Assembly (NCBI GenBank): GCA_036387335.1
Contig: DASVTZ010000134.1
Span: forward strand, 1 to 34,973
Origin: Longimicrobium sp.
GTDB lineage: Bacteria; Gemmatimonadota; Gemmatimonadetes; Longimicrobiales; Longimicrobiaceae
Direction: 5' to 3'
Length of the DNA stretch: 34,973 bases
In this document: in pieces, positions 6,253 to 31,885 of the stretch
Layout of the letters: the number at the start of each line of letters is the position of its first letter
Position numbering within the stretch: position 1 is the stretch's first letter
Program-made: the position numbers and the translations under genes
Notes under the pieces: generated by a model
What the model was told of the DNA's origin: nothing
The model's input: the letters and a program-made list of their open reading frames with translations, nothing else
Database searches by the model: none

Positions 6253-6257
6253 GCCCT

Positions 6258-7187: not shown

Positions 7188-7198
7188 GGCCGTTCGCG

Positions 7199-8155: not shown

Positions 8156-8164
8156 CGGGAGGGG

Positions 8165-8860: not shown

Positions 8861-9006
8861 GCAGTCCTCGGAATGGAGTTGCGGCAGCGGCGCGATTTCG
8901 GCCGAAGCGCCTGGTTGCACCGGAAACGGCGATGGGTGCACGCCGCCACCCGGCGGGTGCACAGAAACCGAAAATTAGCGCCGCGCTTGGACTTGTGTCA
9001 ACCGGG

Positions 9007-9155
9007 AGTGCGTGAGTGCGGAAGTGCGTTAGTCCTGAGTCCTAAGTGCCAAGTGCTGACCCCCGGCCATTCCCCCCCAGCACTCAGCACTCAGGACTTA
9101 GCACTACTTTTCCAACGCACTCACGCACTCACGCACTCACGCACTCACGCACTTC
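9007..9155. repeat. Nested palindrome with tandem CGCACTCA units
   Basis: Outer arms are AGTGCGTGAGTGCGG... (9007-9030) and the five-copy CGCACTCA-type array (9114-9155). Inner arms are AGTCCTGAGTCCTAAGTGCC... (9031-9059) and its complement (9078-9105). The outer right arm supplies the last codons and stop of the antiporter gene. Confidence 0.85.
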
Positions 9156-10409: not shown

Positions 10410-10852
10410 CAGTGTCCCCCGCCCTTTCTCCCTGGCTTTGGCGCGCGCGCGGCTTCGAACGGGATCGGCAGGCAGTGCTCGCCCCCGACCATCGCGGCGC
10501 CCTTCATCCGCCCCGGCGCCGTCGTGAGGTCGACGATGGCGCGCAGGGCCGTGCCCCCCATCGGATCACAGTACTCCGCATGGGTGAGGGCAAGACCGCC
10601 GTTCCTCAGCTCGAGCGTGTCGCCGCGAAACCTGCCCCGCAGCTGGATTCCGCCGCTCACCGGCAGCACGAGCGAGAGGTGCTCCCCCGACTGCTGCACC
10701 ACAAAGGTGGAGCCCGCGAGCGGCCCCGCCCCGATCCGCCACTCGCCGCCGATGGCGCGCGGCGCACGCAGGTCGCGCCCGGCGTGCAGCACGCCGAGCA
10801 CCCCCGCGATCGGAATGAACACCATCATCACGTACGTAAGAAGAGACTTCAT
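10409..10852 (-). CDS. Small membrane-anchored protein, family not recognised
   Basis: The product has 147 residues from ATG 10852. It begins with one hydrophobic segment (MKSLLTYVMMVFIPIAGVLG) that could be an uncleaved anchor or signal peptide. The mature part looks beta-rich, with repeated short strands (GEWRIGAGPLAGSTFVVQQS; LRGRFRGDTLELRNGGLALT) and two cysteines (about residues 96 and 128). The C-terminus is basic. The stop overlaps the antiporter start by one base, so both are read from one message; a role in folding or sensing for the antiporter is only a guess from that coupling. Confidence 0.7.
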   Translation of the reverse strand: MKSLLTYVMMVFIPIAGVLGVLHAGRDLRAPRAIGGEWRIGAGPLAGSTFVVQQSGEHLSLVLPVSGGIQLRGRFRGDTLELRNGGLALTHAEYCDPMGGTALRAIVDLTTAPGRMKGAAMVGGEHCLPIPFEAARAPKPGRKGGGH

Positions 10853-11047
10853 CGGAACAGGCGGAATGGTGGGCGCGATTGGCGGCGGGAAAGTGCCCCG
10901 GCCGCGCGCGTGTGTCAACGAGGGGTCCGTAACGAACGCGGGCGCCCAATCGCCGGGGGATGAATCCTCCGGCTGGAACGACGGGAAGCCCGCTGAAGCG
11001 GGCTCGCGCGCGGCGATCTGTGGGGCGCGGCCCTCCCCCCCATTTTG

Positions 11048-11117
11048 TCATCCTGAGCGACGCGCTGCACCGCCCTTGCCCCGGCTCCTCACTCTGGCGC
11101 GGAGCGAAGGATCTACT
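11048..11117. repeat. Dispersed repeat of the GTCATCCTGAGCGA / GCGAAGGATCTACT type
   Basis: GTCATCCTGAGCGACGCGC opens the element and GGAGCGAAGGATCTACT closes it. This pair of sequences is a recurrent intergenic element in high-GC soil bacteria as I recall; only one copy is in this window. It sits in the 390-base gap between divergent genes, which otherwise shows nothing I can name. Confidence 0.6.
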
Positions 11118-11245
11118 ACGCGCGACGAGAGGACGGCGCGCGGGCCTCTAGCCTCGCCGGCCTTGCAGAACCGCCCTCCGGTGCGGTACCCTGCCGATTG
11201 CGGAATGCGATTGCGCAGGAGGAGCCCACCGGTGGAGATGCGTAC

Positions 11246-12031
11246 TTGATCGACTTCCACAGCCACCTCGTTCCCGGCGTGGACGACGGCGCGGCCGACG
11301 TGGAGCAGGCGCGCGCGGCGATCGCCGAGATGCGGGGCCAGGGGGTGCACACCGCCATCACCACGCCGCACCTGAGCGGCGCGCTGACGGCGCACCCCGA
11401 GGAGCTCCGCGCGCGCCTGGACCAGGTGGAGGCGGGGTGGAAGGAGATGCGCGGCATCGCCGCCGCGGAGGAGCCGGCGCTGCGGCTGGAGCTCGGCGCC
11501 GAGGTGATGCTGAACACCGATACCCCCGACCTCTCCGACCCGCGCACCCGGCTGGCGGGGACCCCGTTCGCGCTAGTCGAGTTTCCGCGCATGCTGGTGC
11601 CGGTAACCGCCGAGCAGACCCTTTCGTACCTGCTGGAACGCGGATGGACGCCGGTCGTGGCGCATCCCGAGCGCTACCCGAACCTCCACGAGGAGCTGCG
11701 CGATGCCGCGGAGTGGCGGCGGATGGGCGCGCGGCTGCAGGTGAACGCGGGTTCGCTGCTGGGCCGCTTCGGAAGGGAGCCGCAGGCGCGCGCATGGCGG
11801 CTCCTGCGGCTCGGCTGGGTGGACTACCTGGCGAGCGACTACCACGCGCGCGGCCGGCTGGCGCTGGCGGGCGCGCGCGACCTGCTCCGCTCGCGCGGCG
11901 GCGAGGAGCAGGCCGGGCTCCTCCTGGAAACCAACGCCGCGCGCCTCCTGCAAGGCGAGCCGCCGCTGGAAGTGCCGCCGCTGGAGGTGACGCCGCCGCT
12001 CTGGAAGCGCATCCTGCGGCTGGGCGAATAG
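11246..12031 (+). CDS. CpsB/YwqE-type PHP-fold tyrosine-protein phosphatase
   Basis: Members of this family are Mn-dependent phosphatases that remove phosphate from tyrosine kinases controlling capsule and exopolysaccharide export. I choose TTG 11246 because the protein then begins with the family start (M)IDFHSHLVPGVDDG, with GGTGGAG 8 bases upstream; a TTG at 11198 is also open. The 261-residue product has metal ligands H5 and H7, H42 in TTPHL, E86 in LELGAEV, HPERYP (140-145) and the closing SDYH (197-200). No matching tyrosine kinase or Wzz gene is in the window; polysaccharide genes lie 13 kb away. Confidence 0.9.
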   Translation: MIDFHSHLVPGVDDGAADVEQARAAIAEMRGQGVHTAITTPHLSGALTAHPEELRARLDQVEAGWKEMRGIAAAEEPALRLELGAEVMLNTDTPDLSDPRTRLAGTPFALVEFPRMLVPVTAEQTLSYLLERGWTPVVAHPERYPNLHEELRDAAEWRRMGARLQVNAGSLLGRFGREPQARAWRLLRLGWVDYLASDYHARGRLALAGARDLLRSRGGEEQAGLLLETNAARLLQGEPPLEVPPLEVTPPLWKRILRLGE

Positions 12032-12099
12032 ATCCGCGGGGGCGGGTTGCGGCGTATCGCGGGAAGGCGAGCCCCTCACGACACCCTGTCCGAATCGTC

Positions 12100-12411
12100 A
12101 TGCAGCCATCGACCCGCACTCCCATTCCGGGGTACTCCCTCCATCCGCCCGGCGAGGCGGATGCGCGCGCGGCGCTCCAGCGCGTCTTCGGCGCCGAGCG
12201 CGGCGGCGAGCGCTGGTCCGAGGCGTGCCGCGCGGCCGGCCTGCAGGTGGGCCGCGTGGAGGACGGCTCGCCGTTCGAGCGCGCCATCCAGGCGCTCTCC
12301 GCACAGGGCGGCCCCACCGCTGTCGTCGCGCGCTCGATGGAGATCCGCCTGCGCACCTATGCCCGCCTCGCCGCCAACGGCGCGGCAACCGCCGCCGGAG
12401 CCCCGCGATGA
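12100..12411 (+). CDS. Small soluble protein coupled to GAF gene, not recognised
   Basis: The product has 103 residues from ATG 12100. After a Pro-rich start (TPIPGYSLHPPGEADA) it is mostly helical and Arg/Ala-rich, with EACRAAGLQVGRVEDG and SPFERAIQALSAQGGPTAVV in the middle. No signal peptide or membrane helix is seen. Its stop overlaps the start of the GAF gene in ATGA, so the two are translated together. That coupling is the only hint to function; the protein may act with the GAF protein. Confidence 0.65.
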   Translation: MQPSTRTPIPGYSLHPPGEADARAALQRVFGAERGGERWSEACRAAGLQVGRVEDGSPFERAIQALSAQGGPTAVVARSMEIRLRTYARLAANGAATAAGAPR

Positions 12412-12911
12412 ACGCACACGATCCGCTGTACGACGCCGCGCGGCTCCAGGAGATCGCGGATCTGGACCTCCTCTCGCCAGACATCGACCCGATCCTGGCC
12501 GAGGTGGCCGCGAAGGCGGCGGCCCAGCTGGGACTCCCCGTCTCGCTGATCAGCGTGGTGCTGGACGAGGCGCTGCACGTGGCCGGCTCGCACGGCATCG
12601 ACGGGCTCTGGCTGGCCGAGACGCGCGGGCACCCGGTGGAGTGGTCGTTCTGCGCCACCTCGGTGCGCACCCGCGACGCCTTCGTGGTGGAGAGCGCGAC
12701 CACGCACCCCTATCACGCCACCAACCCGCTCGTCACGCAGGACGGGGTGCGCTGCTACGCGGGCGTCCCGCTGATCTCGTCGCGCGGGCACGTGCTGGGC
12801 AACCTGTGCGTCGTGGGCCTGGAGGAGCGCACCTTTTCGCCCGCCGACGTGGAGGTCCTCCGCGACCTCGCCCGCGAAGCCGTCGCGCGCATCGAAGGCC
12901 GCCGGGCGTAG
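12408..12911 (+). CDS. Stand-alone GAF-domain protein
   Basis: The product has 167 residues from ATG 12408. It is one GAF domain of the type found in bacterial sensor proteins: a helical start (YDAARLQEIADLDLLSPDID), LPVSLISVVLDEALHVAGSHG, a WSFCATSVRTRDAFVVESAT stretch, VRCYAGVPLIS and VLGNLCVVGLEERTFSPADV. There is no output domain, so it must act through another protein or as a simple binding protein. Cys in WSFC and RCY are at positions commonly seen in this family, but the bilin-binding Cys pattern cannot be established here. It overlaps the previous small gene by 4 bases. A strong terminator follows. Confidence 0.85.
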   Translation: MNAHDPLYDAARLQEIADLDLLSPDIDPILAEVAAKAAAQLGLPVSLISVVLDEALHVAGSHGIDGLWLAETRGHPVEWSFCATSVRTRDAFVVESATTHPYHATNPLVTQDGVRCYAGVPLISSRGHVLGNLCVVGLEERTFSPADVEVLRDLAREAVARIEGRRA

Positions 12912-12933
12912 CGGATCTGGCCATCTTGTTGAC

Positions 12934-12977
12934 GAAAGCGGTACGGGGAGCAAATCTCTCCGTACCGCTTTCTTCTG
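12934..12977 (+). terminator. Rho-independent terminator after the GAF gene
   Basis: A 17-bp stem with one G-T pair joins GAAAGCGGTACGGGGAG (12934-12950) to CTCTCCGTACCGCTTTC (12956-12972) across the loop CAAAT, followed by TTCT. It lies 22 bases after the GAF stop. Confidence 0.8.
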
Positions 12978-12990
12978 GAGCCCCGCCGCG

Positions 12991-13440
12991 ATGAGCACCC
13001 CCGCATCTTCCCGCCCTCTGTGGACGTGCCCCGACTGCGGGCGCGCATTCGCCAACGCGGGGCAGCGGCACGCGTGCGGGCGGCACTCGCTCGAGGCGCA
13101 CTTCGCCGGGCGGGAGCCGCGCATCCGTGAGCTGTACGACGCATTCCTGGCGCGGATCAGGGAGATCGGGCCCGTGACCGTGCTGCCGCAGAAGACGCGC
13201 ATCGCCTTCCAGACGCGGATGTCGTTCGCGCAGCTCACTCCCGCGCGCGCCTGGATCGACGGGCACCTGGTGCTGGCGCGGCGTGTGGAGCACCCCGCCT
13301 TCCGCCGCATCGACACCATCTCGCCGCGCAACCACGTCCACCACTTCCGCCTCACCGATGAGGCTGACATCTCCCCCGACCTGCTCGCCTTCCTGCGCGA
13401 AGCGTACGACGTGGGCGAGCAGAAGCACCTCGACCGCTGA
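12991..13440 (+). CDS. DUF5655 protein with zinc-finger-like start
   Basis: The product has 149 residues from ATG 12991. It begins with a zinc-finger-like pattern, WTCPDCGRAFANAGQRHAC (two Cys, then H and C). A helical part follows (IRELYDAFLARIREIGPVTV), then a beta-rich part with KTRIAFQTRMSFAQLTPARA and HPAFRRIDTISPRNHVHHFRL. This matches the DUF5655 family as I know it, often fused to or following such a finger. The domain has a DUF1801-like look and no proven activity. The gene sits alone between a terminator and a palindromic repeat. Confidence 0.8.
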   Translation: MSTPASSRPLWTCPDCGRAFANAGQRHACGRHSLEAHFAGREPRIRELYDAFLARIREIGPVTVLPQKTRIAFQTRMSFAQLTPARAWIDGHLVLARRVEHPAFRRIDTISPRNHVHHFRLTDEADISPDLLAFLREAYDVGEQKHLDR

Positions 13441-13481
13441 TGGAGACGTCCACCCGCCTAGCGTCTCGAGGGACCCAAATG

Positions 13482-13552
13482 TCACGCAAAGGCGCGAAGA
13501 CGCGAAGGAAAGGATGAGATCACTTTCTTTGCGCCTTCGCGTCTTTGCGTGA
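13482..13552. repeat. Palindromic dispersed repeat (GCGAAGACGCGAAGG family)
   Basis: The left arm at 13482-13512 (TCACGCAAAGGCGCGAAGAC...) pairs with the right arm at 13523-13552 (ending CGTCTTTGCGTGA). It lies between two convergent genes; a related version forms the outer arms at 34591-34757. Confidence 0.85.
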
Positions 13553-13580
13553 GACCCTTATCCGTGACTCCGCCCGCGTA

Positions 13581-14153
13581 TCAGAAAAGCATTCCGACGG
13601 AGAGCCGCAGCGTGGGGATCACCAGCTGCGCTTCGCCGCTGGCCGAGGTCACGGGAAAGAGGCGCTTGCCGCCGCCGCCGTAGCCGTAGTAGAAGCGCCG
13701 GTCCACGCCCATCGTGTGGCTCCTCGCCACCTCGAAGCCCACGCCCAGCGCGGTAAAGGTGTCGCCGCCGTCCGGGGCCACGTGGTCGCCGCGCACCCAG
13801 GTGGGCCCGAACGTCACGCCGAACGACACGCCGTTGAGCCCATCGGCGGAGGGGTAGTAGCGCAGCTTGCCTTCCAGCGTGGCGTAGTGGAGCTCGCCGG
13901 TTTCGTACACATCGCCCGGTGCCAGGCCGTCGTAGGTGTAGCCGTCCGCGGAGAAGTAGCTCGATCCGAGCCCCAGCGATACCGTCGGCGCCACCACGCG
14001 CTCGTAGTCGCCCGCGTAGAAGCCGAAAAGGAAGTGGAACGGGAGTATGGAGATCGACTGCGTCCGCTCCGGAGGGAGCGAGTCGTCGATCTGGGCACGG
14101 GCCGGGGCGGCGCAGAGGAGCGCGGCAACGGCGGCGGCAAGGGCACGCTTCAT
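13581..14153 (-). CDS. Outer-membrane beta-barrel protein
   Basis: The product has 190 residues from ATG 14153, which gives a clear signal peptide (MKRALAAAVAALLCAAPARA, cleaved before QIDDS). The mature part is a series of alternating strands with many aromatic and glycine residues (SYFSADGYTYDGL; FYYGYGGGGKRLFP). It ends in LRLSVGMLF, with the C-terminal phenylalanine that marks BAM-assembled barrels. The length suggests an 8-stranded barrel. No specific ligand or family is evident; it stands alone on the minus strand. Confidence 0.8.
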   Translation of the reverse strand: MKRALAAAVAALLCAAPARAQIDDSLPPERTQSISILPFHFLFGFYAGDYERVVAPTVSLGLGSSYFSADGYTYDGLAPGDVYETGELHYATLEGKLRYYPSADGLNGVSFGVTFGPTWVRGDHVAPDGGDTFTALGVGFEVARSHTMGVDRRFYYGYGGGGKRLFPVTSASGEAQLVIPTLRLSVGMLF

Positions 14154-17118: not shown

Positions 17119-17429
17119 CGCGGCGTCACGCGCGCAGGCACCCTGGCGGGACGGGGCACAACCGTGGTGGACGGGGGTACGGTAAAGTAGAACGGCCTTG
17201 CCATCCTGCGGGAGAGAAACAACGAGAAGATGCCGGGTGGGAAACCGAAAACCGCGGGGCGTACCAGGGCCGCTCCTCGGTCCTGGATGTGCAGGGGTGG
17301 TGTTCGTGCGTTTTCGTCCGCCCATGGTACGTGGCTCAGTCGGCGGCGGGCCGCCGTCCGCCGGCCGGACGCGCAGCCCACGGGGCCGGAACCTGCAGGT
17401 GCGTGCTCTCTCCTCTCCGCGCGAGCCGA
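17119..17429. other. Intergenic stretch before the PqqD-like gene
   Basis: This 311-base gap holds no gene I can support. I searched both strands for a precursor peptide with the YxxP leader motif because the next genes are RiPP-like, and found none. An open frame from ATG 17230 is Arg-rich, lacks the motif and runs into the PqqD start, so it is probably chance. Confidence 0.5.
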
Positions 17430-17687
17430 ATGTACGCCAGGAATCCCCGCGTCATCGAAACGCACCTGGATCGCGAGCTGATCCTGCTCGATCCGGGCAC
17501 GGGCGAGATGTTCAGCCTCAACGACACGGGCCGCCGCATCTGGAGTGCGCTTCCCGCGGAATCGGTGACCGCCGCCGCACGCGAGCTCGCTGCCGTGCTC
17601 GACGTCGACGTCGCGACGGCTGAGCGGGACGTGCGCGGCCTCTTTGAGCGGCTGCGCGCCGCGGAGCTGATCCGCGTCTCCACATGA
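17430..17687 (+). CDS. PqqD-like RiPP recognition protein
   Basis: The product has 85 residues from ATG 17430. It fits the PqqD / RiPP recognition element fold: strands LDRELILLDPGTGEMFSLN, the conserved LNDTGRRIWSAL turn, then helices and a winged-helix-like end with DVRGLFERLRAAELI. Family members bind the leader of a ribosomal peptide and hand it to a modifying enzyme; in lasso clusters the B1 protein of this fold reads the YxxP leader motif. Its stop overlaps the HPr-kinase-like gene by 4 bases (ATGA), so the two act together. A fitting precursor gene lies at 20981-21148. Confidence 0.87.
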   Translation: MYARNPRVIETHLDRELILLDPGTGEMFSLNDTGRRIWSALPAESVTAAARELAAVLDVDVATAERDVRGLFERLRAAELIRVST

Positions 17688-18595
17688 CGGAGTTCTCCGT
17701 GATGGGCCGCACCGTGCAAACGGCGAATCTCCCGCCCAGCCTGGAGCAGTGGCTGCACGCACACTGGCGGTTCGACGAGCACGAGACGGGCAAGGCGGGG
17801 TTCGACATCGTCGTGGCGCGAGGTGCCCGGCCGCGCACCCCGCTCCCGGCTCCCGGACCCGTGGTACGCATTCCCCGCATCGAGCTCCCCTGCCGGACCC
17901 TGGGGGAGGATGACTGGATGATCGGCGACGAGGCTGCGGGCGTCCGGCTGGCGCTCGGCACCGCGGGAAGCCGGATCGAACCGTACGGGCTGGAGGAGGA
18001 GTCGAGGAGGGAGCTTCTTCGCGGAGCGCTTTTCGTGGCCCTGTACGAGTCGCTACGTGCGAGCGGGCTGGTGCCGCTCCACGCGTCCGTCATCGCCCGG
18101 AACGGCGAGGCCACCGCGCTCCTGGCCCGCAGCGGAACCGGAAAGAGCAGCACGCTCGTCCAGGCGGTGCGCGGCGGGTGGGACCCGGTCGCGGAGGATT
18201 TCGCCTGGCTGGACCCCGTCACCCTCCAGGTGTACGGCTGGGACCGCGGGGTGCACCTGTGGCCCGACGCACGGCGGCGCTTCGCCCCGGACCTGCCCGG
18301 GCGGATGGGGGCGGACGGGAAGCTGTTCATCCCCTGGGACGCGCTGGGCGGGGCGCGGCCCGGGGGGGCGCGGCTCGCGAGCGTGGCGCTCCTCTCCCGC
18401 GACGCGAACCGGCCGTCCCAGTGGGAGGCGCTGCCGGAGCGGGAGGCGGTGCGGGCGCTGTGGGAGAGCATCGGCGTCCCGCTCTCCGCCGCCTCGCGCG
18501 CGGCGGTCGCGGAGCTGATCCCCGCCCTCCTCCGCCGCGTGAGGACGCGGCGGCTCATCCTGGGCGGCACCCCGCTCCCGCTGGCGGGCCCGTGA
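17684..18595 (+). CDS. HPr-kinase-like protein (lasso-type peptide kinase family)
   Basis: The product has 303 residues from ATG 17684. It resembles the C-terminal part of HPr kinase/phosphorylase: GLVPLHASVIARNGEA (His133), the P-loop region ALLARSGTGKSSTLVQ (K154, S155) and an acidic VAEDFAWLDP segment (E171, D172). The first P-loop glycine is alanine (A148). The family includes ThcoK and PadeK, which phosphorylate the C-terminal serine of lasso precursors. True HPr kinases differ in being tied to sugar-phosphotransferase genes, absent here. The gene is coupled to the PqqD-like gene and convergent with the RCC1 lipoprotein gene. A peptide substrate is inferred from context. Confidence 0.8.
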   Translation: MTEFSVMGRTVQTANLPPSLEQWLHAHWRFDEHETGKAGFDIVVARGARPRTPLPAPGPVVRIPRIELPCRTLGEDDWMIGDEAAGVRLALGTAGSRIEPYGLEEESRRELLRGALFVALYESLRASGLVPLHASVIARNGEATALLARSGTGKSSTLVQAVRGGWDPVAEDFAWLDPVTLQVYGWDRGVHLWPDARRRFAPDLPGRMGADGKLFIPWDALGGARPGGARLASVALLSRDANRPSQWEALPEREAVRALWESIGVPLSAASRAAVAELIPALLRRVRTRRLILGGTPLPLAGP

Positions 18596-18619
18596 GGCGG
18601 GGAGCATCGCTCCTCCCCT

Positions 18620-20935
18620 TCACGGCTGCTTGAAGACCACCCCGCCGGAGATCGCCACAGGTGCGGGGTAGATCGTGCCGGGACTGCCACCCGACTGGCC
18701 CGAATAGTCTCCCCACCCGTAGGCCGCGCCCGCGGAGGTCACTCCGATCGACGTGTAAAACACACCCGCGCCGATGCTCGTGAACGTCAGCCCGCCCGAG
18801 ACCGGCACGGGCGCGGTACGGTCCGTGGTCGTGCCGTCGCCCAGCGATCCGCGGAAGTTGCCTCCCCAGGCGTAGGCCGCGCCCGCCCGGGTCAGCGCCA
18901 ACGTGTAGTGTCTGCCCGCCGTGATGCTGGCGAACGTAAGCTCTCCGGAAACCGCCACCGGCGCGGCGCTGTTCGTGGTGGTGCCGTCGCCTAGCTGGCC
19001 CACGGAGTTGCTCCCCCACGCGTAGGCCTTGCCCGAGGCGGCGAGCGCCACCGTATGGGACGCGCTCGTGGAGATGCTCACGAACGGCCGCCCGCCCGTC
19101 GGCACCGCCATGGGTGCGGCGCTAGCGATGCCGCTTCCCCCCCACTGGTATACCGCACCCGTGGAGGTCAGCGCAACCGTGTGGAAGAAGCCCCCCTCAA
19201 CCCTCGCGAAGCCGAGCCCGCCGGTGACCGCCACCGGCGCGGTGCGCAGGGTGTCCGTGCCGTCGCCGAGCTGGCCCTGCTGGTTGCGCCCCCAGGCGTA
19301 GGCCGCACCCGTGGAGGTAAGCCCCACCACGTGAAAGCCGCCCGCGCTGATGCTGGCGAAGGTCAGCCCGCCGGAGACCGCCACCGGCTCGGCGCGGTTC
19401 GTGGTGGTGCCGTCGCCCAGCGCGCCCTCGTCGTTGCTCCCCCACGCGTAGGCCACTCCCGAGGAGGTCAGCGCCACCGTGAAGGCGAAGCCCGCGCTGA
19501 TGCTGGTGAAGGTATGCCCGCCTGCGACCGCCACCGGCGAGTCGCGGTCCGTGGTGGTGCCGTCCCCCAGTTGGCCCCCGTAGTTGGCCCCCGAGCAGTA
19601 CGCCGCACCCGAGGGGGTCAGTCCGCAGGCGTGGCTCGTCCCGGCCGTCAGGGTCGCCGCCCTCAGCGGCTCACCCGCAAGGGTGGCCGTTCCGCTCTTC
19701 CCGCCCGCGGCGGCAGTGATCGTGGCCCTGCCCGCGCCCGTAATGGTCACCAGCCCCGTGCCGCTCACCGTCGCCACCGCGGAGTCCGAGCTGCTCCACG
19801 CGATGCTCGCCCACTCGGCGGGGCCGCCGTTGGCGTCCGTGGCGGCCGCGGTCAGCTGCACCGTCTGCCCCACCAGCTCGCTCGCCACGTTCACCAGCCG
19901 CACCGCGTCCGTCGGGCTCACCGCCACCGATGCGATCGCCGGGCAGGGGGAGAGCGTGGCTGCCGGATTCCCGCTCTCGCCCGCGGTGCGCACGCCGCAG
20001 AGCATGCGCTTCGCCGCGCTTCCCGCGTACGCGCCGCCGGGGAAGAGCGTGACCCCCGTGGCGGCCAGCGCGGCGGCCCGCGCCTCGAACGCGCTGCGCC
20101 CCGCCGCCGCCTGCTCCTCCGGCGCCTGCGTCACGCGCGTCTCGCCGTCCTCCACCGCCACCGCCAGCACCGAGATGGTGAAGGGGTCGTCCGCCGCCGT
20201 GGCCGCCAGCGGGATGCGGTACGCAAAGGTGACGCGCCCGTCGAACTGGTCCGCCGCCGGGGTGGGCGCCAGCGTCCGCGTGTCCGTTGCCGTGGCGTGC
20301 CGCACCACGAAGCCGTAGGGAAAGCGGTTCGTCACCCCCTCCGGCATGCCGATCGCATCCGCCTCGGCCTCGGTGAAGGCCTGCAGAACGTCCGGGTACT
20401 GCGAGGCCGGCGCGCCCCCCGCGTCCAGCGCAACCGCCCCGGTGGGCCGCAGCTGCGCCGCCAGCGCGGAGTCCGCGGCGCCGCCGTCCTGCCTGAGGAA
20501 CCGCCGCACGGGTGTGCCTGGGATGGTGCCCGCGGTACTCACGGGAACGAAGGCCACGTTCCGCCGCTGCGTGGCGTAGGCGGTGCCCTGCGCATCCGCG
20601 TTGCGCACTTGGAAGACGGCCTGCAGGTAGCGCTGTCCCCCGGCCCCACGCGTACCCACGTCCACCGTGGCGGCGCTCACGTGGCGCACCTGGACGGTGC
20701 CCGCGGGGCTGCCGCCCGGCACCGGGGTGAGGTCCCCCCGCGCGCGCTCCAGTGGAAACACCGCGGCGCTCATCTGGGCGGTGCCGATGCCGCTGATGCG
20801 GATCTCCACCAGGCCGAGCGCGCGCGGGGCCTCCGGAGCGGGGTTTGCGCCGCCCGTGCCGGTGACGTCGTCGGTGCACGCGCCCAGGAGTCCGGCGCCG
20901 AGCAGGGCAAGGGGGCAGCAATGTTTGAACCGCAT
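18620..20935 (-). CDS. RCC1-repeat lipoprotein with Big2 domain
   Basis: The product has 771 residues from ATG 20935. A lipoprotein signal ends in the lipobox LLGAC (C20), so Lgt would attach it to the membrane, probably facing outward. Residues about 35-330 are a large unknown region with two Cys near its end. A bacterial Ig-like (Big2) domain follows (about 334-418, AWSSSDSAVATVSGTGLVTI). The rest is a run of about seven RCC1 propeller repeats of roughly 50 residues (YAWGSNDEGALGDGTTTN type), also repetitive in DNA. RCC1 propellers bind proteins; no ligand can be named. It starts 45 bases after the stop of the lasso-leader peptide gene on the same strand. Confidence 0.9.
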   Translation of the reverse strand: MRFKHCCPLALLGAGLLGACTDDVTGTGGANPAPEAPRALGLVEIRISGIGTAQMSAAVFPLERARGDLTPVPGGSPAGTVQVRHVSAATVDVGTRGAGGQRYLQAVFQVRNADAQGTAYATQRRNVAFVPVSTAGTIPGTPVRRFLRQDGGAADSALAAQLRPTGAVALDAGGAPASQYPDVLQAFTEAEADAIGMPEGVTNRFPYGFVVRHATATDTRTLAPTPAADQFDGRVTFAYRIPLAATAADDPFTISVLAVAVEDGETRVTQAPEEQAAAGRSAFEARAAALAATGVTLFPGGAYAGSAAKRMLCGVRTAGESGNPAATLSPCPAIASVAVSPTDAVRLVNVASELVGQTVQLTAAATDANGGPAEWASIAWSSSDSAVATVSGTGLVTITGAGRATITAAAGGKSGTATLAGEPLRAATLTAGTSHACGLTPSGAAYCSGANYGGQLGDGTTTDRDSPVAVAGGHTFTSISAGFAFTVALTSSGVAYAWGSNDEGALGDGTTTNRAEPVAVSGGLTFASISAGGFHVVGLTSTGAAYAWGRNQQGQLGDGTDTLRTAPVAVTGGLGFARVEGGFFHTVALTSTGAVYQWGGSGIASAAPMAVPTGGRPFVSISTSASHTVALAASGKAYAWGSNSVGQLGDGTTTNSAAPVAVSGELTFASITAGRHYTLALTRAGAAYAWGGNFRGSLGDGTTTDRTAPVPVSGGLTFTSIGAGVFYTSIGVTSAGAAYGWGDYSGQSGGSPGTIYPAPVAISGGVVFKQP

Positions 20936-20980
20936 GGGTGCCGTTCCGTCAAGGGAGGTGCCGCGGTGGAGACGGCGGGG

Positions 20981-21148
20981 CTACTTCTGGTCGTTCTTCA
21001 GGTACTGGGTCCAGGGCTGCTCGTCGGCTACCACGAAGCTCTGCTGGAGCGTGAGCGCGGTCCACCCCCCCAGATCTTCAAGAAGCGGCGGAACGTACGG
21101 CGCCCGCGCGGCGGAAGGCGCGGGAGATGGCGGATCGGGTGTCTGCAT
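20981..21148 (-). CDS. Lasso-type leader peptide (RiPP precursor candidate), 55 residues
   Basis: This gene is too short to be found by usual ORF cut-offs. ATG 21148 opens 55 codons ending TAG at 20981. After a Pro/Ala-rich start (about 1-16) the product reads PYVPPLLEDLGGWTALTL, giving Y18, P21, L23, G27 and T33: the exact lasso leader pattern YxxPxLxxxGxxxxxT. By family rules the leader would end after T33-L34, leaving a 21-residue core that begins QQSFVVADEQPW and ends in lysine. A normal lasso core starts with Gly, Ala, Ser or Cys, so Q35 argues against classic ring closure; acids D42/E43 sit at core 8 and 9. Only a weak AGGG ribosome site is visible. The RCC1 lipoprotein gene follows by 45 bases. 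Confidence 0.7.
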   Translation of the reverse strand: MQTPDPPSPAPSAARAPYVPPLLEDLGGWTALTLQQSFVVADEQPWTQYLKNDQK

Positions 21149-21878
21149 CGGCGGAGAGCCCTGTGGCGGTGGAAAGCAAAAAGAACGGCCCCGCGTGCTG
21201 ATCGCCGGGCGATCCGGGACGCGTTCCCCGGCCGGAAACGCAGCTTCGGTCTAATGGAGATGTGCGCAGCGGCGTGCGCACCGGTTCGGGACGGGGGAGC
21301 ACGGGCAGGGGCGCGGGCCGGCTGGTGCGTGCCTCAATGTACACTAGGCCGGAACAAAAAGCGATCATCTTTGCAAACACCTTATGGACGCTCGCTTTAG
21401 CGGCGGTGGCCCGGCGGGTGGCCACGAGCCCGACATTGCAGGTGCAAGACGAAACTTGCGTGATGGTGCGAAGCTGATCGCCATGCGCGGAGGCGCGTGC
21501 GCAACGCCCGGGGACGGTCGGTCGGAGTTGGCGCGGGCGCTTGAAGCGAATCTCGGCCAGGAGACGCCACCGGTGCACTGTTTCGAACCACAAACCCAGC
21601 ACCACCAATACCCGGTGGATGCTGGGTTTCTCTATAGTGCCCCGCGCGAGACCGCCAGGTGGTCACTCGGGCTCCACCGCAGGTCCCTCGTTCGCCGCGA
21701 GCCCCGAAAATTCGCCCCGGCGCGTCCCTCTATCAACTCACCTCGCGCCGCACGCCCCCCGATGCGGCCGCAGGGGCGGCTCTCCCGGGCCGGGCGCCTC
21801 CCCTAAGCACCGAATGCTTTCACGGTGTACGGTGCCCTGCACCATCCCGCCCTTCCCCGTACTGAAAAGGAGGAACCC
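21149..21878. other. Gene-free 730-base stretch with a symmetric hairpin
   Basis: I see no supported gene here. A good hairpin lies at 21592-21629: AAACCCAGCA pairs with TGCTGGGTTT, plus a CCACC/GGTGG inner stem with one bulged A. Flanking A and T triplets would let it end transcription in either direction. Promoters for the peptide gene (minus) and the 21879 gene (plus) should be in this gap but are not clear by eye. A 46-residue open frame at 21337-21477 (plus) is unconvincing. Confidence 0.5.
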
Positions 21879-25512: not shown

Positions 25513-26856
25513 ATGGCACTTCCGACCCCCCTCCAGACGGTTGAGGCACGCAGCGATGTGACGGATGGCGGAGCGGCGGCTCTCCCCGCCCTGCTCGGGG
25601 GAACCCCGACCGTCCGCATCCCCGGCCCGCACTTCCGGTGGCCTCTCATCGAAGCGGACGACGAGGAGGCGGTGCTCGCACAGCTGCGCAGCGCCGAGCT
25701 CTCGTACCATCGCCGCGCGGGCGTCGTGGCGGAGCTCGAGGACGCATTCGCGGAGTTCCACGGCGTTCCCTTTGCGATGTCCGCCAATTCGGGGAGCGCG
25801 GCGCTGCACGCGGCGTTCTTCGCGCTCGACCTGGAGCCGGGGGACGAGGTGCTGGCGCCGGCATACACGCACCTTTCCACGGTGCTCCCGATGCTGCACT
25901 GCCACCTCGTTCCCGTTCTGTGCGACGTGGACGAGGAAACGGGGAACCTGGACCTCGCGGATGCGGAGCCGCGCATCGGCCCCCGAACCCGGGCCATCGT
26001 GGTCACGCACCAGTACGGCCACGTGTGCGACATGCCCGCCGTGCTCGCCTTCGCGCAGAAGCACGGGCTGCGCGTGGTGGAGGACTGCTCGCACGCGCAC
26101 GGGGCCACGCTCGACGGACGGCTCGCCGGCACGTTCGGGGACGCGGGGTGCTTCAGCCTGCAGGCCCACAAGGCGGTGCCCGCCGGCGAGGGCGGGGTGC
26201 TGATCTGCAGCGATCCGCGGGTGATGGAGCGCGCCGCGCTACTGGGCCATTTCCGGCAGCGCACCCCCGCCACCACCGACGCGTACGCGCCCTTTGCGGA
26301 GACGGGATACGGCCTCAAGAACCGGCTCCACCCCCTGGGCGCGGCCCTTGCCCTGTCGCAGCTGCGCAAGCTGCCGGCGCGCATCGAAGCGCGGCGCGCG
26401 AACCTGCAGTACTTTGACGAGCAGCTGCGCGGCGTTCCCGGGGTCCGCCCTCTCGCGACGGCGCCGGGGGTGTCGCGCGGAGGGTACTTCCGCTACCTGG
26501 TGCACTACGACGCGGCGGAGCTGGGCGGGCTGCCGGCGGCGCGCTATGTGGAGGCGCTGCGGGCCGAAGGCGTGCAGGAGGTGAACCCGGGGAGCCTGGC
26601 CAGGCCCCTGCACCTCACCCCCATCTTCCAGACGCTCGACGACCGCATGTACCGCAACGGATGGCCACGGCGCGGCGCGCACACCGACCGCGCCCTCGTG
26701 TACGGCCCCGGCGACTTTCCCGGCGCGGAGCGGTTTTCCGCGACCACGCTCCAGTTTCCGGCGTTCACGCAGCCCAGCTTCCACATCATCGACGCGTACC
26801 GCGAGGCGATGGTGAAGGTGGCGCGGCATGCATCGCTTCTGGCGGAGGGCGCTTGA
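25513..26856 (+). CDS. DegT/DnrJ/EryC1-type PLP aminotransferase
   Basis: Enzymes of this family transfer an amino group to keto-sugars in glycan or antibiotic sugar pathways. The 447-residue product starts at ATG 25513. It shows MSANSGSAALHAAFFALDL (90-108), DEVLAPAYTHLST, the PLP aspartate in VVEDCSHAHGA (D191) and the PLP lysine in SLQAHKAVPAGEGG (K220). The C-terminal substrate domain is complete. About 40 extra N-terminal residues precede the usual start. It opens a four-gene run: its stop overlaps the next gene in TTGA. The substrate sugar is unknown. Confidence 0.92.
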   Translation: MALPTPLQTVEARSDVTDGGAAALPALLGGTPTVRIPGPHFRWPLIEADDEEAVLAQLRSAELSYHRRAGVVAELEDAFAEFHGVPFAMSANSGSAALHAAFFALDLEPGDEVLAPAYTHLSTVLPMLHCHLVPVLCDVDEETGNLDLADAEPRIGPRTRAIVVTHQYGHVCDMPAVLAFAQKHGLRVVEDCSHAHGATLDGRLAGTFGDAGCFSLQAHKAVPAGEGGVLICSDPRVMERAALLGHFRQRTPATTDAYAPFAETGYGLKNRLHPLGAALALSQLRKLPARIEARRANLQYFDEQLRGVPGVRPLATAPGVSRGGYFRYLVHYDAAELGGLPAARYVEALRAEGVQEVNPGSLARPLHLTPIFQTLDDRMYRNGWPRRGAHTDRALVYGPGDFPGAERFSATTLQFPAFTQPSFHIIDAYREAMVKVARHASLLAEGA

Positions 26857-28142
26857 GGACGGTGATCGCGGGGGGAGGCGTGGCAGGGCTCGCCGCCGCC
26901 CGGGCGCTTCGCTCGCGCGGGCTGGGGTGCACCATCCTGGAAGGCACGGGCGAGCTCGGGGGGCTGGCGTCCACGGACCAGTCGGAAGGGTTCAGCTTCG
27001 ACCGCACTGGGCACGTCCTGCACTTCAGCCGGCCGGAGGTGCGGGCCGAGGTCGAGGCGCTCGGCGTGCCGCTCACGCGCACGGAGAGGCGCGCCGCGGT
27101 GGTGGTACGCGACGCGGTGGTGCCCTACCCCTTCCAGTTCAACCTGTGGGCGCTGGGCGAGCCCGGCCTCGCCAGGCGGGCGCTGGACGGGGCGCGCGAG
27201 GCGCACGCCGGCCGCGACCCGAACCCCGCCACCTTCGCAGGCGTGCTGGCGGGGGCGTGGGGGGAGACGATGGAGACGCTCTTCTTCAGGCCCTACAACG
27301 AGAAGCTCTGGGGAAGGAGCCTGGAGGAGCTGCCGCCGGACTGCGCGGGCGACTTCCTCCCCGATCCCCAGCTCCCCCTGGTGGAGGAGGGCATCCTGGG
27401 GCCGACCGGCTACACGGGGTACAACGCGCACTTCCTCTATCCCGCGTCCGGGCGGCTAGGCGACGTCGTCGATGCGCTGGCGCGGCCCCTCCTGGAACAG
27501 GTGCGCCTGCACAGCACCGTCGCGTCAGTGGACCTGGAGCGCCGCACGGCCGCCACCCGCGACGGACGGGAGTTCCCGTTCGACCACCTGATCAGCACGA
27601 TGCCGCTTCCCGCGTTGCTGGCGGCCGCGAAGCTCCCCCACCCCCCGGCCGGGCTCCTGGACGCGACCAGCGTGGGCAACGTCCGCGTCCGCATCCGGGG
27701 GCGGATGCTGAGCGACCTCCACTGGATCTACACCCCCGATCCCTCCGTCGTCTTCCACCGCGTGGGCTTTCCGGCGAACCTGAACCCCCGCACCTGTCCG
27801 CCGGGGTGCATCAGCCTTTCCATCGAGCGCACGATTCCGCGCGAAGGGGAGCGGCCCGGCACGCGTGAGATCGCTGCGTCGGCCGTGGAGTACCTCGTGC
27901 GCGTGGGGCTGATCGAGGTGGAGTCGTGGGACGCGGAGGAGATCGTGCTGTCGCCCGCGTACGTGGTGTGGCGGGCGGCGGGGCGTCCGTGGTTCCGCGA
28001 GATGGCGGAGCGCCTGCGCGAGCACGGGGTGGTGCTCGCCGGCCGCTTCGGCACCTGGGAGTACCTGTCGCTGGAGGGCGCCTTCGCGTCGGGGATGGCC
28101 GCGGCGGAAGACGTCGCGGGGCGGGAGGTGGCGCGTGTCTGA
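26853..28142 (+). CDS. FAD-dependent amine-oxidase/UDP-galactopyranose-mutase-like flavoprotein
   Basis: The product has 429 residues from TTG 26853, which lies within the upstream stop (TTGA overlap) and follows GGAGGG. A dinucleotide fold opens the protein (RTVIAGGGVAGLAAARAL; GGGVAG at 7-12), with an acidic LEGTGELGGLAST segment holding the FAD ribose. It continues in the protoporphyrinogen-oxidase/NAD(P)-binding style (FRPYNEKLWGRSLEELP; YPASGRLGDVVDAL) seen in glycan-cluster flavoproteins. The end (AGRFGTWEYLSLEGAFASG) is the typical FAD-closing motif. In this context a role in sugar modification is likelier than in heme synthesis. Confidence 0.87.
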   Translation: MRTVIAGGGVAGLAAARALRSRGLGCTILEGTGELGGLASTDQSEGFSFDRTGHVLHFSRPEVRAEVEALGVPLTRTERRAAVVVRDAVVPYPFQFNLWALGEPGLARRALDGAREAHAGRDPNPATFAGVLAGAWGETMETLFFRPYNEKLWGRSLEELPPDCAGDFLPDPQLPLVEEGILGPTGYTGYNAHFLYPASGRLGDVVDALARPLLEQVRLHSTVASVDLERRTAATRDGREFPFDHLISTMPLPALLAAAKLPHPPAGLLDATSVGNVRVRIRGRMLSDLHWIYTPDPSVVFHRVGFPANLNPRTCPPGCISLSIERTIPREGERPGTREIAASAVEYLVRVGLIEVESWDAEEIVLSPAYVVWRAAGRPWFREMAERLREHGVVLAGRFGTWEYLSLEGAFASGMAAAEDVAGREVARV

Positions 28143-29073
28143 CGTGCGGCGCGTGGTGATCGTGGGCGGGTGCGGGTTCATCGGGAGCCGGCTCGCCAAC
28201 GCGCTCGCCGCGCGGGGGGCCGACGTCACCGTGGCAGACATTGCCCCTCCCCCCGCCGACCTGGACCCGCGCTGCCGTGTGGAGGAGCGGGACGTCCGCC
28301 GGGCCTCCGAGCTTCGCGGGGTGACGCGTGGCGCGGAGGCGGTCTTCGCGCTGGCGGCGAAGCTCAAGAAGACGTGCGAGGAGGATCCCGCCCGCGGGTG
28401 GCAGACCAACGTGCTGGGGATCGCCAACCTGCTGGAAGAGGTGATCGCCTCCGGCAGCCGGCCGCGCGTCGTCTTCACCAGCTCGGGCGGGGTGTACGAT
28501 CCCGACGGCACCGTGTTCCCCACTCCGGAGTCGGGGGCTCTCCGGGCGGTGGGGCTCTACGCGGCGTCGAAGCTCGCCGGGGAGGGGATGGTGGCGGCCT
28601 CGGCGGCGGCGGGCGGCTTCTCCGCCGTCATCTTCCGCCCCTTCACCGTGTTCGGCGCGGGGCCGGCGGCGGGTGAGCGGGGGCACTTCATCGCGCACTG
28701 GCTGGAGCTCGCCGCCGCCGGACGCCCGCTGACGCTGCACGGCGACGGGTGCGGCACGGTGGACCTCACCTGGGTGGGCGACGCGGTGCGCGCGCTGGAG
28801 ATGGCGGCGCGCGCCCCCATCCCCGCGAGGGAGTGCCGCACGTACAACCTGGGCGGCGGAACCGAGACGCCGGTGTTCGAGGTAGCCCGCTGGATGCGCG
28901 ACGCCGATCCGTCGATCACGGTGACGCACACGGCCGCGCCGCACCAGTCGCCCTCGCGGCAGTCCGCGGACATGCGGCGCATCCGCGACGAGCTGGGATA
29001 TGAGCCGGGGGTGCACCCGCGCGACGAGATCCGGCGCCTGGTGAAGACCCGGCTGCACGGGGCGGCGCGGTGA
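28135..29073 (+). CDS. NAD-dependent epimerase/dehydratase (extended SDR)
   Basis: The product has 312 residues from GTG 28135, 8 bases inside the previous gene. The NAD site is GGCGFIG (11-17), the active site T115/S116-S117 in VVFTSSGGVYD and YAASK (Y142, K146). The substrate-domain segment FRPFTVFGAGPAAGERG is typical of enzymes acting on nucleotide sugars or steroid-like sugars. Its end overlaps the next start in GTGA. Substrate cannot be named, but together with the aminotransferase it would make an amino-deoxysugar or modify one. Confidence 0.9.
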   Translation: MSDVRRVVIVGGCGFIGSRLANALAARGADVTVADIAPPPADLDPRCRVEERDVRRASELRGVTRGAEAVFALAAKLKKTCEEDPARGWQTNVLGIANLLEEVIASGSRPRVVFTSSGGVYDPDGTVFPTPESGALRAVGLYAASKLAGEGMVAASAAAGGFSAVIFRPFTVFGAGPAAGERGHFIAHWLELAAAGRPLTLHGDGCGTVDLTWVGDAVRALEMAARAPIPARECRTYNLGGGTETPVFEVARWMRDADPSITVTHTAAPHQSPSRQSADMRRIRDELGYEPGVHPRDEIRRLVKTRLHGAAR

Positions 29074-30005
29074 GCACGGCGCTGACGGGGGGACTCCTGG
29101 CGGCGGTGCTGTGCGCCGCGCTCACGCCGCTCGCGGGTCGGCTGGCTACGCGGCTGGGGATCGTGGCGGGCGCCAACCCGGACGTGCCCACGCACACCCG
29201 TCCCGTGCCCCTGCTGGGGGGCGTCGCGATCGTGGCGGGAGTGGCGCCCGTGCTGGCGATGGCCGCGGCGGCGGACCCGCGCTGGAGGGCCCTCGTCCTC
29301 GCCCTGGTTCCCCTCGTGCTGCTGGGGCTCTACAAGGACTGGGCGGAGCGCCCGCTCTCTCCCATCCTGCAGCTCGTCGTCCAGGGCGTGGCGGCGGGGG
29401 TTCTGGTGTGGGGCGGACTGCGCCTCGACGTGCTTCCGCATCCCGCCGCCGACGCGGCCGCCAGCGTGTTCCTCTGCCTCTGGATCGTCAACAGCTGGAA
29501 CTTCATCGACGTGATGGACGGACTTGCCGCGAGCGTGGCGGTGGTCTGCGCCGTCACCTTCGCGCTTGCCGCGGCCCACCTGGGTGACCGGACGGCGGCG
29601 GCGGTCTCGCTTGCCGTCGCGGGGGGCGCGCTGGGCTTCCTGCTGCACAACCGGCCGCCGGCGCGCATCTTCATGGGCGACGTCGGCTCGTTTTCGCTGG
29701 GGCTTTCCTTCGCCGCGCTGGTGCTGGCGATGTCCAGCGACGTTGGCTCGGGAGCCGGCGCGCTCTTCCTGGTGGCGGTGCCGCTGGCGGACGTCGCGTT
29801 CAGCTCGCTCGTCCGCATCCGGGCCGGGCGCTCGCCGCTCGCGGGCGGGGCCGAGCACCTGTGCCTCCGCCTGCTGGCGCGGGGGTGGAAGGGACCGGTG
29901 ATCGTGGCGGCCGCGTCGCTCGCGGCCGCGGCAGGGGGAACGGCGGGGCTCTTCCTGCTTCGGCAGGCTTACGCGCCGCCGGCCGCGACGACCACCACCG
30001 AGTAG
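29070..30005 (+). CDS. WecA/MraY-type polyprenyl-phosphate sugar-1-phosphate transferase
   Basis: These membrane enzymes start glycan assembly by linking a sugar phosphate to undecaprenyl phosphate. The 311-residue product starts at GTG 29070 and has about ten membrane helices. It shows LLGLYKDWAERPLSP (D90, one of the usual two aspartates; the other position is K), NSWNFIDVMDGLAAS (N144, D147, D150) and RIFMGDVGSFSLGL with the conserved MGD. Its 3' end overlaps the convergent methyltransferase by 37 bases. Being last in the run of sugar genes, it fits the lipid-linked first step of a surface glycan. Confidence 0.9.
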   Translation: MSTALTGGLLAAVLCAALTPLAGRLATRLGIVAGANPDVPTHTRPVPLLGGVAIVAGVAPVLAMAAAADPRWRALVLALVPLVLLGLYKDWAERPLSPILQLVVQGVAAGVLVWGGLRLDVLPHPAADAAASVFLCLWIVNSWNFIDVMDGLAASVAVVCAVTFALAAAHLGDRTAAAVSLAVAGGALGFLLHNRPPARIFMGDVGSFSLGLSFAALVLAMSSDVGSGAGALFLVAVPLADVAFSSLVRIRAGRSPLAGGAEHLCLRLLARGWKGPVIVAAASLAAAAGGTAGLFLLRQAYAPPAATTTTE

Positions 30006-30688
30006 GGAAGGAGCGGGAGGCGCTGCTCGCGGACGATGCGCAGACCCTGCTCCTCCGCCAGGCGACGAACGGTGCCGGGGCTCTGGTGGACGTGGTTGAT
30101 GCACACGTAGGCACGCCCGCCGGGGCGCAGGCGCGGCCCCACCCCGGCCAGGAACCGGCCCAGCACCTCCCATCCCATCTCGCCTCCGCAGGTACGGACG
30201 GCCTGGCGGCGGCGCTCCTCGTCGTCGCTCAGCCCTGTATCGCGCATCTGCATCTCGAACACCGCGCGCGGCGTGAAGGGCGGAACGAACCACGCCACGT
30301 CAAAGGTCCCCTCCACACCCTCGAACAGATCAGTGCAGCGGACGTCGACCGGGAGTCCGTTGCTCTCCGCCGACTGCCGCGCCCAGCTCGCCCATTCCTC
30401 CACCAGCTCCGTCGCCACCACCTCCAGCCGCCACCGGCGCGCGGCCCACAGCGCCAGCGTCGCGTACGGGCCCGTGCCCACCTCCACCACGCGCATCCCG
30501 TCGCGCAGGTCGCGGGCGAGCGCCTGCCGGATGGCGAGCGTGCCCAGCTCCCAGAAGCTGGACGCGCCGCACGGGCGCAGGGTGGAGCCGAAGATCAGTC
30601 GGGTCGCGGCGGGCGACCGGTAGACCGTGCGGCGCACCGCCCGGTTCGCGGCCGACAGCAGGCGTACCCCCACCGAGGTGGTGCTCAT
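29969..30688 (-). CDS. SAM-dependent methyltransferase, HemK-like
   Basis: The product has 239 residues from ATG 30688, which overlaps the upstream glycosyltransferase stop by 4 bases. Motif I is VVEVGTGPYATLAL (67-80), followed by VVATELVEEWASWARQSAES and TFDVAWFVPPFTP. The VPPF motif stands where HemK-type N/Q-methyltransferases have NPPY, so the catalytic Asn is replaced by Val. A C-terminal half with CGGEMGWEVLGRFL and the final strand LLPYSVVVVAAGG completes the fold. It probably methylates a product of the glycan cluster; that is inference from coupling to the glycosyltransferase. Confidence 0.85.
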   Translation of the reverse strand: MSTTSVGVRLLSAANRAVRRTVYRSPAATRLIFGSTLRPCGASSFWELGTLAIRQALARDLRDGMRVVEVGTGPYATLALWAARRWRLEVVATELVEEWASWARQSAESNGLPVDVRCTDLFEGVEGTFDVAWFVPPFTPRAVFEMQMRDTGLSDDEERRRQAVRTCGGEMGWEVLGRFLAGVGPRLRPGGRAYVCINHVHQSPGTVRRLAEEQGLRIVREQRLPLLPYSVVVVAAGGA

Positions 30689-31863
30689 CTTCCTTCGTCT
30701 CCCGGAGAACGGATGGCCAGCAACTCCTCGTACACGGCGAGCGTTTCCCGCACCACCTGGTCCGCGCCGAACTCCGTCTCGGCGGCGAGGCGCGCGTTGG
30801 AGCCGAGGGTGCGGCGGAGCTCGGGGTCGTTCAGCAGCCTCGCCAGGGCTCGCGCGAGCGCGGCGGGATCGCGGGGTGGCACGAGGATGCCCGTCTCGCC
30901 GTCGATCACCAGCTCGCGGCAACCCGGCACGTCCGTGGCCACCATCGCCTTGCCGCACGCCGCCGCTTCCAGCAGCACCTTGGGGAGCCCTTCGCCGTAC
31001 CACGACGGGAGGCACACGACGGCGGCGGAGCCGATCACGGCGGCCATGTCGGCGCGCGCCCCCCACCACTCCACCTCGCCCGCCCCAGACCACGCCCGCA
31101 GCGTCTCTTCGCTCAGCGAGCTGCGATGCGCGGGGTCCGGCTTGCCGACCAGGACGAAGCGCGCGGAAACGCCGCGCGCACGGAGCTCCCGTGCCGCGGC
31201 GGCGAAGTCACCGACTCCCTTTTCGCGCATCATCCGGCCCGCGTAGAGCACGACCGGCGCGCCGCCGGGCTCCGGCACCGGCGCGAACGCCTCCAGGTCC
31301 ACACCCGACCCACGGATCACGGCGGAGCGGCCGGGCCGGGCAGCGCCCGCGCGCGTCAGCAGATCCAGGTCGTCGCGATTCTGGAAGATGATGCGCGCGC
31401 GCCGGTGCCCCGCAGCCAGCCGCAGCAGCAGGAGGATCAGGCGGCGCAGAAAGGGGGCCTTCCACGAACGCGAAGTGAACGCCATCCCCAGGCCGGTGAT
31501 GGTGTTCGCGCACACGGCCCGACCGCTGAGCCGCGCCGCGATCCCGCCGTAGATCACCGGCTTCAGCGCGAAGTGGTGCACCAGGTCCGGCCGATGACGC
31601 CGGTACGCGGCGAGCACCTGCGCGAGGCTGCGCAGCTCCGTCAGCGGGTTGATGCTCCCCCGCGCGACGAACCAGGGGATGATCCGAAATCCGTCCGCCA
31701 CCTCCTCGGGCATACCGCCGGTGTCCATCATCACCGTGACGTCGGCGCCCGCTTCTCGCAGCACGTGGGCGAGCGCCAGCCGGTTTCGGCGGAAGTCATC
31801 CCAATCGAGGAGGAGGAACAGGAACCGCACCCCAGCCAAGCTCGCGGGCGCCGAGGTGCTCAC
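30685..31863 (-). CDS. Group-1 (GT4) glycosyltransferase
   Basis: I start at GTG 31863, with GGAG 8 bases upstream; GTG 31830, nearer the Rossmann start, is the alternative. The 392-residue product has the GT-B fold: an N-terminal domain (VRFLFLLLDWDDFRRNRLAL; HHFALKPVIYGGIAARLSG) and a C-terminal nucleotide-sugar domain (VLYAGRMMREKGVGDF; SWYGEGLPKVLLEAAACG with the E-x7-E motif; TDVPGCRELVIDGETGILV). It resembles WbpH/PglA-like transferases that add sugars to lipid-linked glycans. It is coupled to the methyltransferase after it and 22 bases from the acidic repeat protein before it. Confidence 0.92.
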   Translation of the reverse strand: MSTSAPASLAGVRFLFLLLDWDDFRRNRLALAHVLREAGADVTVMMDTGGMPEEVADGFRIIPWFVARGSINPLTELRSLAQVLAAYRRHRPDLVHHFALKPVIYGGIAARLSGRAVCANTITGLGMAFTSRSWKAPFLRRLILLLLRLAAGHRRARIIFQNRDDLDLLTRAGAARPGRSAVIRGSGVDLEAFAPVPEPGGAPVVLYAGRMMREKGVGDFAAAARELRARGVSARFVLVGKPDPAHRSSLSEETLRAWSGAGEVEWWGARADMAAVIGSAAVVCLPSWYGEGLPKVLLEAAACGKAMVATDVPGCRELVIDGETGILVPPRDPAALARALARLLNDPELRRTLGSNARLAAETEFGADQVVRETLAVYEELLAIRSPGDEGR

Positions 31864-31885
31864 ACGACCGGCTCCGGAATAGCGG

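Follow-up and report, generated by a model that had tools for sequence, protein, structure and literature searches.

A candidate linear, kinase-modified RiPP precursor with a lasso-type leader in Longimicrobium, and its counterparts on Deinococcus plasmids

The described systems closest to the locus studied here combine an RRE or PqqD protein with an HprK-like protein. The linear polyphosphorylated peptide (LPP) system of Paenibacillus alginolyticus (lpp cluster), which was described in 2026 and is restricted to Bacillota as reported, has a YxxPx[V/L] leader, a discrete RRE, an HprK-like kinase and an NTP transferase but no macrolactam cyclase, and its kinase LppK phosphorylates Ser3 of LppA (PMC13381572). 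D70 of its RRE, LppB, forms a hydrogen bond to the leader Tyr. In the bsf cluster of Bradymonas sediminis (BsfA/B1/B2/K), which is described as a lasso cluster, BsfK phosphorylates Ser3 of BsfA in an RRE-assisted manner (PMC10368454). Paeninodin-type lasso peptides have an RRE, an HprK-like kinase, an NTP transferase and a B2 protein, together with a WxxP leader, a cyclase and a modified C-terminal Ser, while the SynChlorMet cassette (TIGR04249-TIGR04251) couples PqqD and an HprK-like protein with radical SAM enzymes. Lasso peptides in general are characterized by a YxxPxL...T(-2) leader for a discrete B1-type RRE, an Asn-synthetase-like macrolactam cyclase in the cluster, and an Asp or Glu at positions 7-9 with a threading tail.

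The DNA analysed in this study, referred to as the window, is a stretch of 34,973 nucleotides from Longimicrobium sp. (contig DASVTZ010000134.1) and contains the following features:

17208..21582, no strand assigned: block of exactly four genes (peptide, lipoprotein, kinase and RRE)
17430..17687, plus strand: discrete RRE of the PqqD family, lasso-B1-like, 85 aa
17684..18595, plus strand: HprK/PEPCK-fold precursor-kinase-like protein, 303 aa; its ATG overlaps the RRE stop
18620..20935, minus strand: lipoprotein-like protein, 771 aa, starting 45 bp past the peptide stop
20981..21148, minus strand: precursor peptide gene, 55 aa, product MQTPDPPSPAPSAARAPYVPPLLEDLGGWTALTLQQSFVVADEQPWTQYLKNDQK plus stop
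Residues 1-34 of the product: leader, with the RRE motif Y18xxP21xL23, then G27, W29, T33 and L34
Residues 35-55 of the product: predicted core, QQSFVVADEQPWTQYLKNDQK
21038..21040, minus strand: codon of the invariant Ser37, core residue 3 if T33 is -2, predicted phosphorylation site

We consider it probable, at roughly 60%, that the product of the small gene is the precursor to a linear, kinase-modified RiPP with a lasso-type leader and no lasso cyclase. What the sequences themselves establish is a conserved coding frame, an RRE and an HprK-fold kinase that match in phylogeny and co-occurrence, a next gene for a predicted lipoprotein with a shared novel N-terminal domain, and no cyclase at the loci. 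As in LPP, there are a YxxPx[V/L] leader motif, a discrete RRE, an HprK-like kinase and, in relatives, an NTP transferase, with no macrolactam cyclase, and a Ser stands at core position 3 if T33 is -2. However, the SipW-like peptidase and MsbA-like exporter of LPP are not seen, no SipW-like signal peptidase being noted among the genes around the loci, and the relatives have instead a B2-type peptidase fused to the NTase. In LppA the Ser stands at T+3 with cleavage after T-1, whereas here it stands at T+4, so that the LPP leader consensus ...FETxxS is replaced by TLxxS with the Ser one residue further from the Thr. Furthermore, LppB is not the nearest solved RRE, and a lipoN surface protein is the partner here. 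The system would thus work like the LPPs but, because peptidase, leader ending and RRE relatives differ, is not filed as a member. With bsf it shares an HprK-like kinase that is predicted to act, assisted by the RRE, on core Ser3, and an identical H-K-D spacing, but there is no cyclase here, and the penultimate leader residue is Thr rather than the Ile of BsfA. Radical SAM enzymes set the SynChlorMet cassette apart; its ScmC is the best NCBIfam match of the window kinase, sub-threshold, and all SynChlorMet matches lie below the curated cut-offs. From the lasso pattern the leader and a B1-type RRE are present, the latter in a clade separate from the local lasso B1, while the cyclase in the cluster and the ring acid with threading tail are not features of these loci.

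A preliminary description of the window, made from its letters alone, had proposed a hidden 55-residue minus-strand product with Y18, P21, L23, G27 and T33 in YxxPxLxxxGxxxxxT spacing, and the motif is indeed exact in the translation. Across all six reading frames of the window it appears a single time, with a mean of 0.02 in dinucleotide shuffles of the window, 4/200 (2%) of which contain at least one; by itself the motif is suggestive and only moderately unlikely by chance. GC by codon position in this frame is coding-like (0.71/0.49/0.80). The peptide matches no NCBIfam or Pfam model, and a search for a sigma-70-like promoter upstream, which is uninformative for this lineage, found none. 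It is conservation that decides, and it shows that the hidden small ORF is a real gene, as had been claimed. The frame is kept in three relatives, G006 (E 1.2e-33), G005 (E 5.9e-8) and G021 (E 6.4e-6), and also in several Deinococcus species. G006, of the same genus, encodes an identical peptide with 2 nucleotide differences, both at synonymous third positions. Over 25 codons, differences at the three codon positions number 5/4/11 between the window and G005, 3/6/14 between the window and G021, and 4/7/15 between G005 and G021, an excess at third positions that points to purifying selection. Scans of genome contigs with the peptide and with the kinase gave no confirmed relative. A second Y-type copy in G005 (L058 6859-7245, minus strand) has a frameshift in the leader and no nearby start, and its own lipoN gene follows.

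In an alignment of 13 homologues from the window's relatives and Deinococcus (12 Y-type and one F-type), P21, G27, T33, L34 and S37 do not vary, and Y18 and W29 hardly do. Conservation of the core holds only in part, for about 8 residues past T33, and not for the remainder. The G021 peptide ends 8 residues past Thr-Leu, giving a core of 8 aa, and several F-type members end 5-8 residues past it. An acid at ring position 7-9 is present in the window copy, where D42/E43 occupy core positions 8/9, but is not conserved across the family. Core residue 1 is Gln, an unusual residue for lasso cyclisation; this puzzle is largely gone if no macrolactam is made.

The leader had been read as one for lasso B1 proteins, and a lasso-B1-like RRE does lie in the same window. 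The earlier picture of the machinery was nevertheless incomplete, since this RRE and a precursor-type kinase, 3.3 kb away, had been missed, as had the lipoprotein gene next to the peptide. The RRE matches NF033530 (E 3.7e-13) and PF05402 (E 1.3e-16); the closest curated models are lasso PqqD proteins, with scores below the cut-offs of those models, and the best solved relatives are the leader-binding lasso RREs TbiB1 and TfuB1. Its D67 aligns with LppB D70, a position that is Asp in 7/7 Y-type RREs. The family profile of the kinase matches HPr kinase, and PEPCK and HprK/P are structural matches of its predicted model (mean pLDDT 83.9), each at a probability of 1.0. In alignment H133, K154 and D172 have the same spacing as the conserved BsfK motif, and A148 and E171 stand at the BsfK Gly and Asp positions. 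A kinase of the window type is found in 4/117 relatives, the same 4 that carry a Y-type peptide. As stated before, no lasso cyclase or B2 protease is present among the window ORFs; cyclase matches in the same genome lie on other contigs only, and both B2 and NTase are absent at the window and G006 loci, which leaves these two loci without a candidate of their own for leader removal. We rejected a cyclase just beyond the contig edge, because the G006 locus lies inside a 188-kb contig without a cyclase or B2 match. The lasso B2 leader peptidase is present in G005 and Deinococcus. In G005, B2 adjoins the kinase and RRE (C32), and an NTase stands at the end of the contig bearing its peptides and lipoproteins (C43); by analogy with the Deinococcus fusions, these may be the two ends of one NTase-B2 gene.

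The lipoprotein consists of a signal peptide ending ...GACTDD, an N-terminal domain of ~340 aa that we call lipoN, a Big_2 domain and RCC1-type repeats. For lipoN, neither a Pfam family nor a solved structure was found by sequence or fold, and a Foldseek search of its model (mean pLDDT 70.7) against the PDB gave no significant match. The block 17208-21582 is 98.6% identical in G006, with a syntenic left flank mostly 90-94% identical and a right flank that is not syntenic and is unrelated, a pattern as expected if the four genes had been exchanged as a unit. At most peptide loci a lipoN-type gene follows the peptide gene immediately. This pairing is common without being strict: no peptide was found at lipoN loci L133 and L134, and in the G021 genome, where peptide, RRE and kinase are all present, a lipoN gene was not found.

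The window's phylum contains many related short ORFs, of which three kinds are separable by context. W-type peptides (WxxPxV..LPRLTDLTLQTG.pI.GGG...GGSTVF) often precede a radical SAM gene and at better-preserved loci are accompanied by lipoprotein, RRE, B2 and kinase. F-type peptides precede a lipoN protein, most of them beside a kinase, and Y-type peptides, the window's included, have their own RRE and kinase. The Y-type RREs (100/99) and likewise the Y-type kinases (98/97), drawn from Deinococcus and four related genomes, each group into a single clade that is distinct from the lasso and radical-SAM paralogues of the same genomes; as the RRE tree has 85 columns and several long branches, its Y grouping alone is relied on. 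Membership of the peptide in the radical SAM-linked family was considered and rejected for this locus on the grounds that its RRE and kinase belong to a different clade. The W-type precursors at L021 (contig C80 of the same genome) 8948-13570 and at L108, L109, L114, L117, L119, L122-L124, L135 and L137 form a large family whose members end in a conserved GGGSTVF-like core. In most cases the gene that comes next encodes a radical SAM protein of ~340 aa, and RRE, B2 and HprK-like kinase are present without a cyclase; this looks like an undescribed radical SAM RiPP family.

Another finding from this study is that plasmids of Deinococcus also carry the lipoN domain and peptides of the Y type. Most Deinococcus lipoN proteins score between 1e-38 and 1e-65 against a lipoN profile made from the window's relatives, and in 346 genomes of the window's phylum, Gemmatimonadota, that profile found nothing outside the taxonomic family of the window; the two lineages thus belong to different phyla. 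On plasmid MP1 of D. radiodurans R1, two precursors, MSEHCQKTAVKPEPRPYQAPAVQDLGPWKAMTLIYSLPIGPGGSRPTGGNSNVW and MQISEAKPQANFSEEAEKTSLASKYEAPQIKDLGSWKTMTLLYSLPIGPGGRSTHQDGPLY, containing ...TLIYSLPIGPGG... and ...TLLYSLPIGPGG..., precede an extracellular nuclease and an Ig-like protein, with an RRE (DR_RS15815), a kinase (DR_RS15810) and an NTase-B2 fusion (DR_RS15790) nearby. The stop of one precursor overlaps the start of the nuclease, DRB0067, which is the only extracellular nuclease of D. radiodurans, bound to the hexagonal layer and released after irradiation (PMC3554781). The N-termini of the nuclease and Ig-like protein match the window lipoN weakly (E 5.6e-4 and 1e-6). Some records list MSEHCQKTAVKPEPRPYQAPAVQDLGPWKAMTLIYSLPIGPGGSRPTGGNSNVW as a hypothetical protein while others leave it unannotated, and a literature search for Deinococcus with lasso or PqqD, or for DRB0068-DRB0070, found nothing. 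NTase-B2 fusions occur in the Deinococcus loci, and no cyclase or radical SAM protein is annotated in those examined. By sequence, what appears to be the same peptide system has gone unrecognised in a radiation-resistant model organism. 'Tail fiber' proteins were also seen in the Deinococcus loci, at the place corresponding to that of the secreted proteins described below.

As to mechanism, we propose that the RRE would bind the leader through Y18xxP21xL23, D67 contacting the Tyr hydroxyl, and would present the C-terminal part to the kinase for phosphorylation of the invariant Ser37. Such phosphorylation on a linear peptide is predicted because two characterised RRE/kinase pairs, those of BsfK and LppK, modify core residue 3, the position that Ser37 occupies when T33 is counted as -2. 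In relatives that keep NTase-B2, a nucleotidyl-type group may be added and/or the leader removed after Thr-Leu; in the window organism this step may be missing, or may fall to another B2 acting in trans. Made together with the surface or secreted lipoN protein, the short product would probably act with it at the cell envelope. This is the weakest step of the proposal, and it is the gene order that suggests the partnership.

That the ORF arose by chance could be argued from its shortness and from the 2% of shuffled windows that contain the motif, but a frame conserved between phyla with coding pattern and gene context leaves this a negligible probability. The preliminary description had suggested a new RiPP-like class or a derived lasso peptide; a non-lasso RiPP class is possible, while the second option is disfavoured. 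For a derived lasso peptide, ring closure would have to come in trans from the lasso cluster on contig C147 of the same genome, which has B1, B2 and a cyclase; the leader fits the lasso rules exactly, with D42/E43 at suitable core positions. We regard this as very improbable, because the loci, including the Deinococcus loci examined, have no cyclase, the ring acid is not conserved, several members end 5-8 residues past Thr-Leu with G021 at 8, the core is unconserved past position ~8 and begins with an unusual Gln, and neither the RRE nor the kinase groups with those of lasso systems; the peptide is thus probably not a lasso peptide. Modification in trans by a radical SAM enzyme, the peptide being an outlying member of the W-type family of the same genomes, could be argued from the leader and TLTLQ stretch shared with W-type peptides adjoining radical SAM genes, and from the radical SAM loci on C80 and C26 of the same genome. 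Since Y-type loci have no radical SAM gene, none being annotated in the Deinococcus loci examined, their cores lack the conserved GGGSTVF-like end, and their RREs and kinases form separate clades, it is quite unlikely.

It is also conceivable that the peptide is not matured to a small molecule and serves instead as a phospho-accepting chaperone, translational leader or regulator of the downstream lipoprotein. The presence of a lipoN-type gene immediately downstream at most loci (45 bp away in the window, and with its start overlapped by the peptide stop in the case of the D. radiodurans nuclease), the hypervariable tail and a window without peptidase would suit such a role. The RRE motif and the B2/NTase partners, however, are RiPP hallmarks, G021 has peptide, RRE and kinase with no lipoN found in the genome, and no peptide was found at the lipoN loci L133 and L134, so that we hold this explanation to be unlikely.

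If the reading as a linear phospho-RiPP is right, such RiPPs would no longer be confined to Bacillota and would be linked to exported proteins. Genome mining that takes a lasso leader as the mark of a lasso peptide would misclassify this family, as the same leader and RRE here appear to feed a cyclase-free system. We further speculate, while considering it doubtful, that this is a cross-phylum class dedicated to one co-encoded lipoN-domain exported protein, as its cofactor, tether or release signal. The exported proteins would then be, no less tentatively, the RCC1 lipoprotein in the window and the radiation-responsive extracellular nuclease in D. radiodurans, and the RiPP would serve a specific exported protein rather than being a free natural product. 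As D. radiodurans R1 carries the full set next to DRB0067, both chemistry and function are testable in a tractable organism.

Several other loci were observed during this work. L020 (contig C147 of the same genome) 7087-13931 is a complete lasso-type cluster with B1, B2, cyclase, a second PqqD and a kinase, whose likely precursor ends GGAGTVYDFTVYAGSV. At L065 (G005:C172) 3073-6996, a precursor carrying two cysteines in its core stands ahead of an RRE, a B2, a kinase and a pair of ABC-2 permease and ATPase, again with no cyclase. Several peptide loci have nearby a secreted protein with a SDILLRLRSGSP..DRFRVDS-like start, which by eye resembles trimeric-fibre/S74 proteins (L022 10167-11285; L119 12065-14360; L114 10093-11238; L116 9278-10429). 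In the window, 25513-31900 is of polysaccharide type, with a DegT aminotransferase, an FAD amine oxidase, an NAD epimerase, and family 4 and group 1 glycosyltransferases. CpsB/CapC lies at 11198-12028, and the LPP clusters of Bacilli are likewise found near capsule loci.
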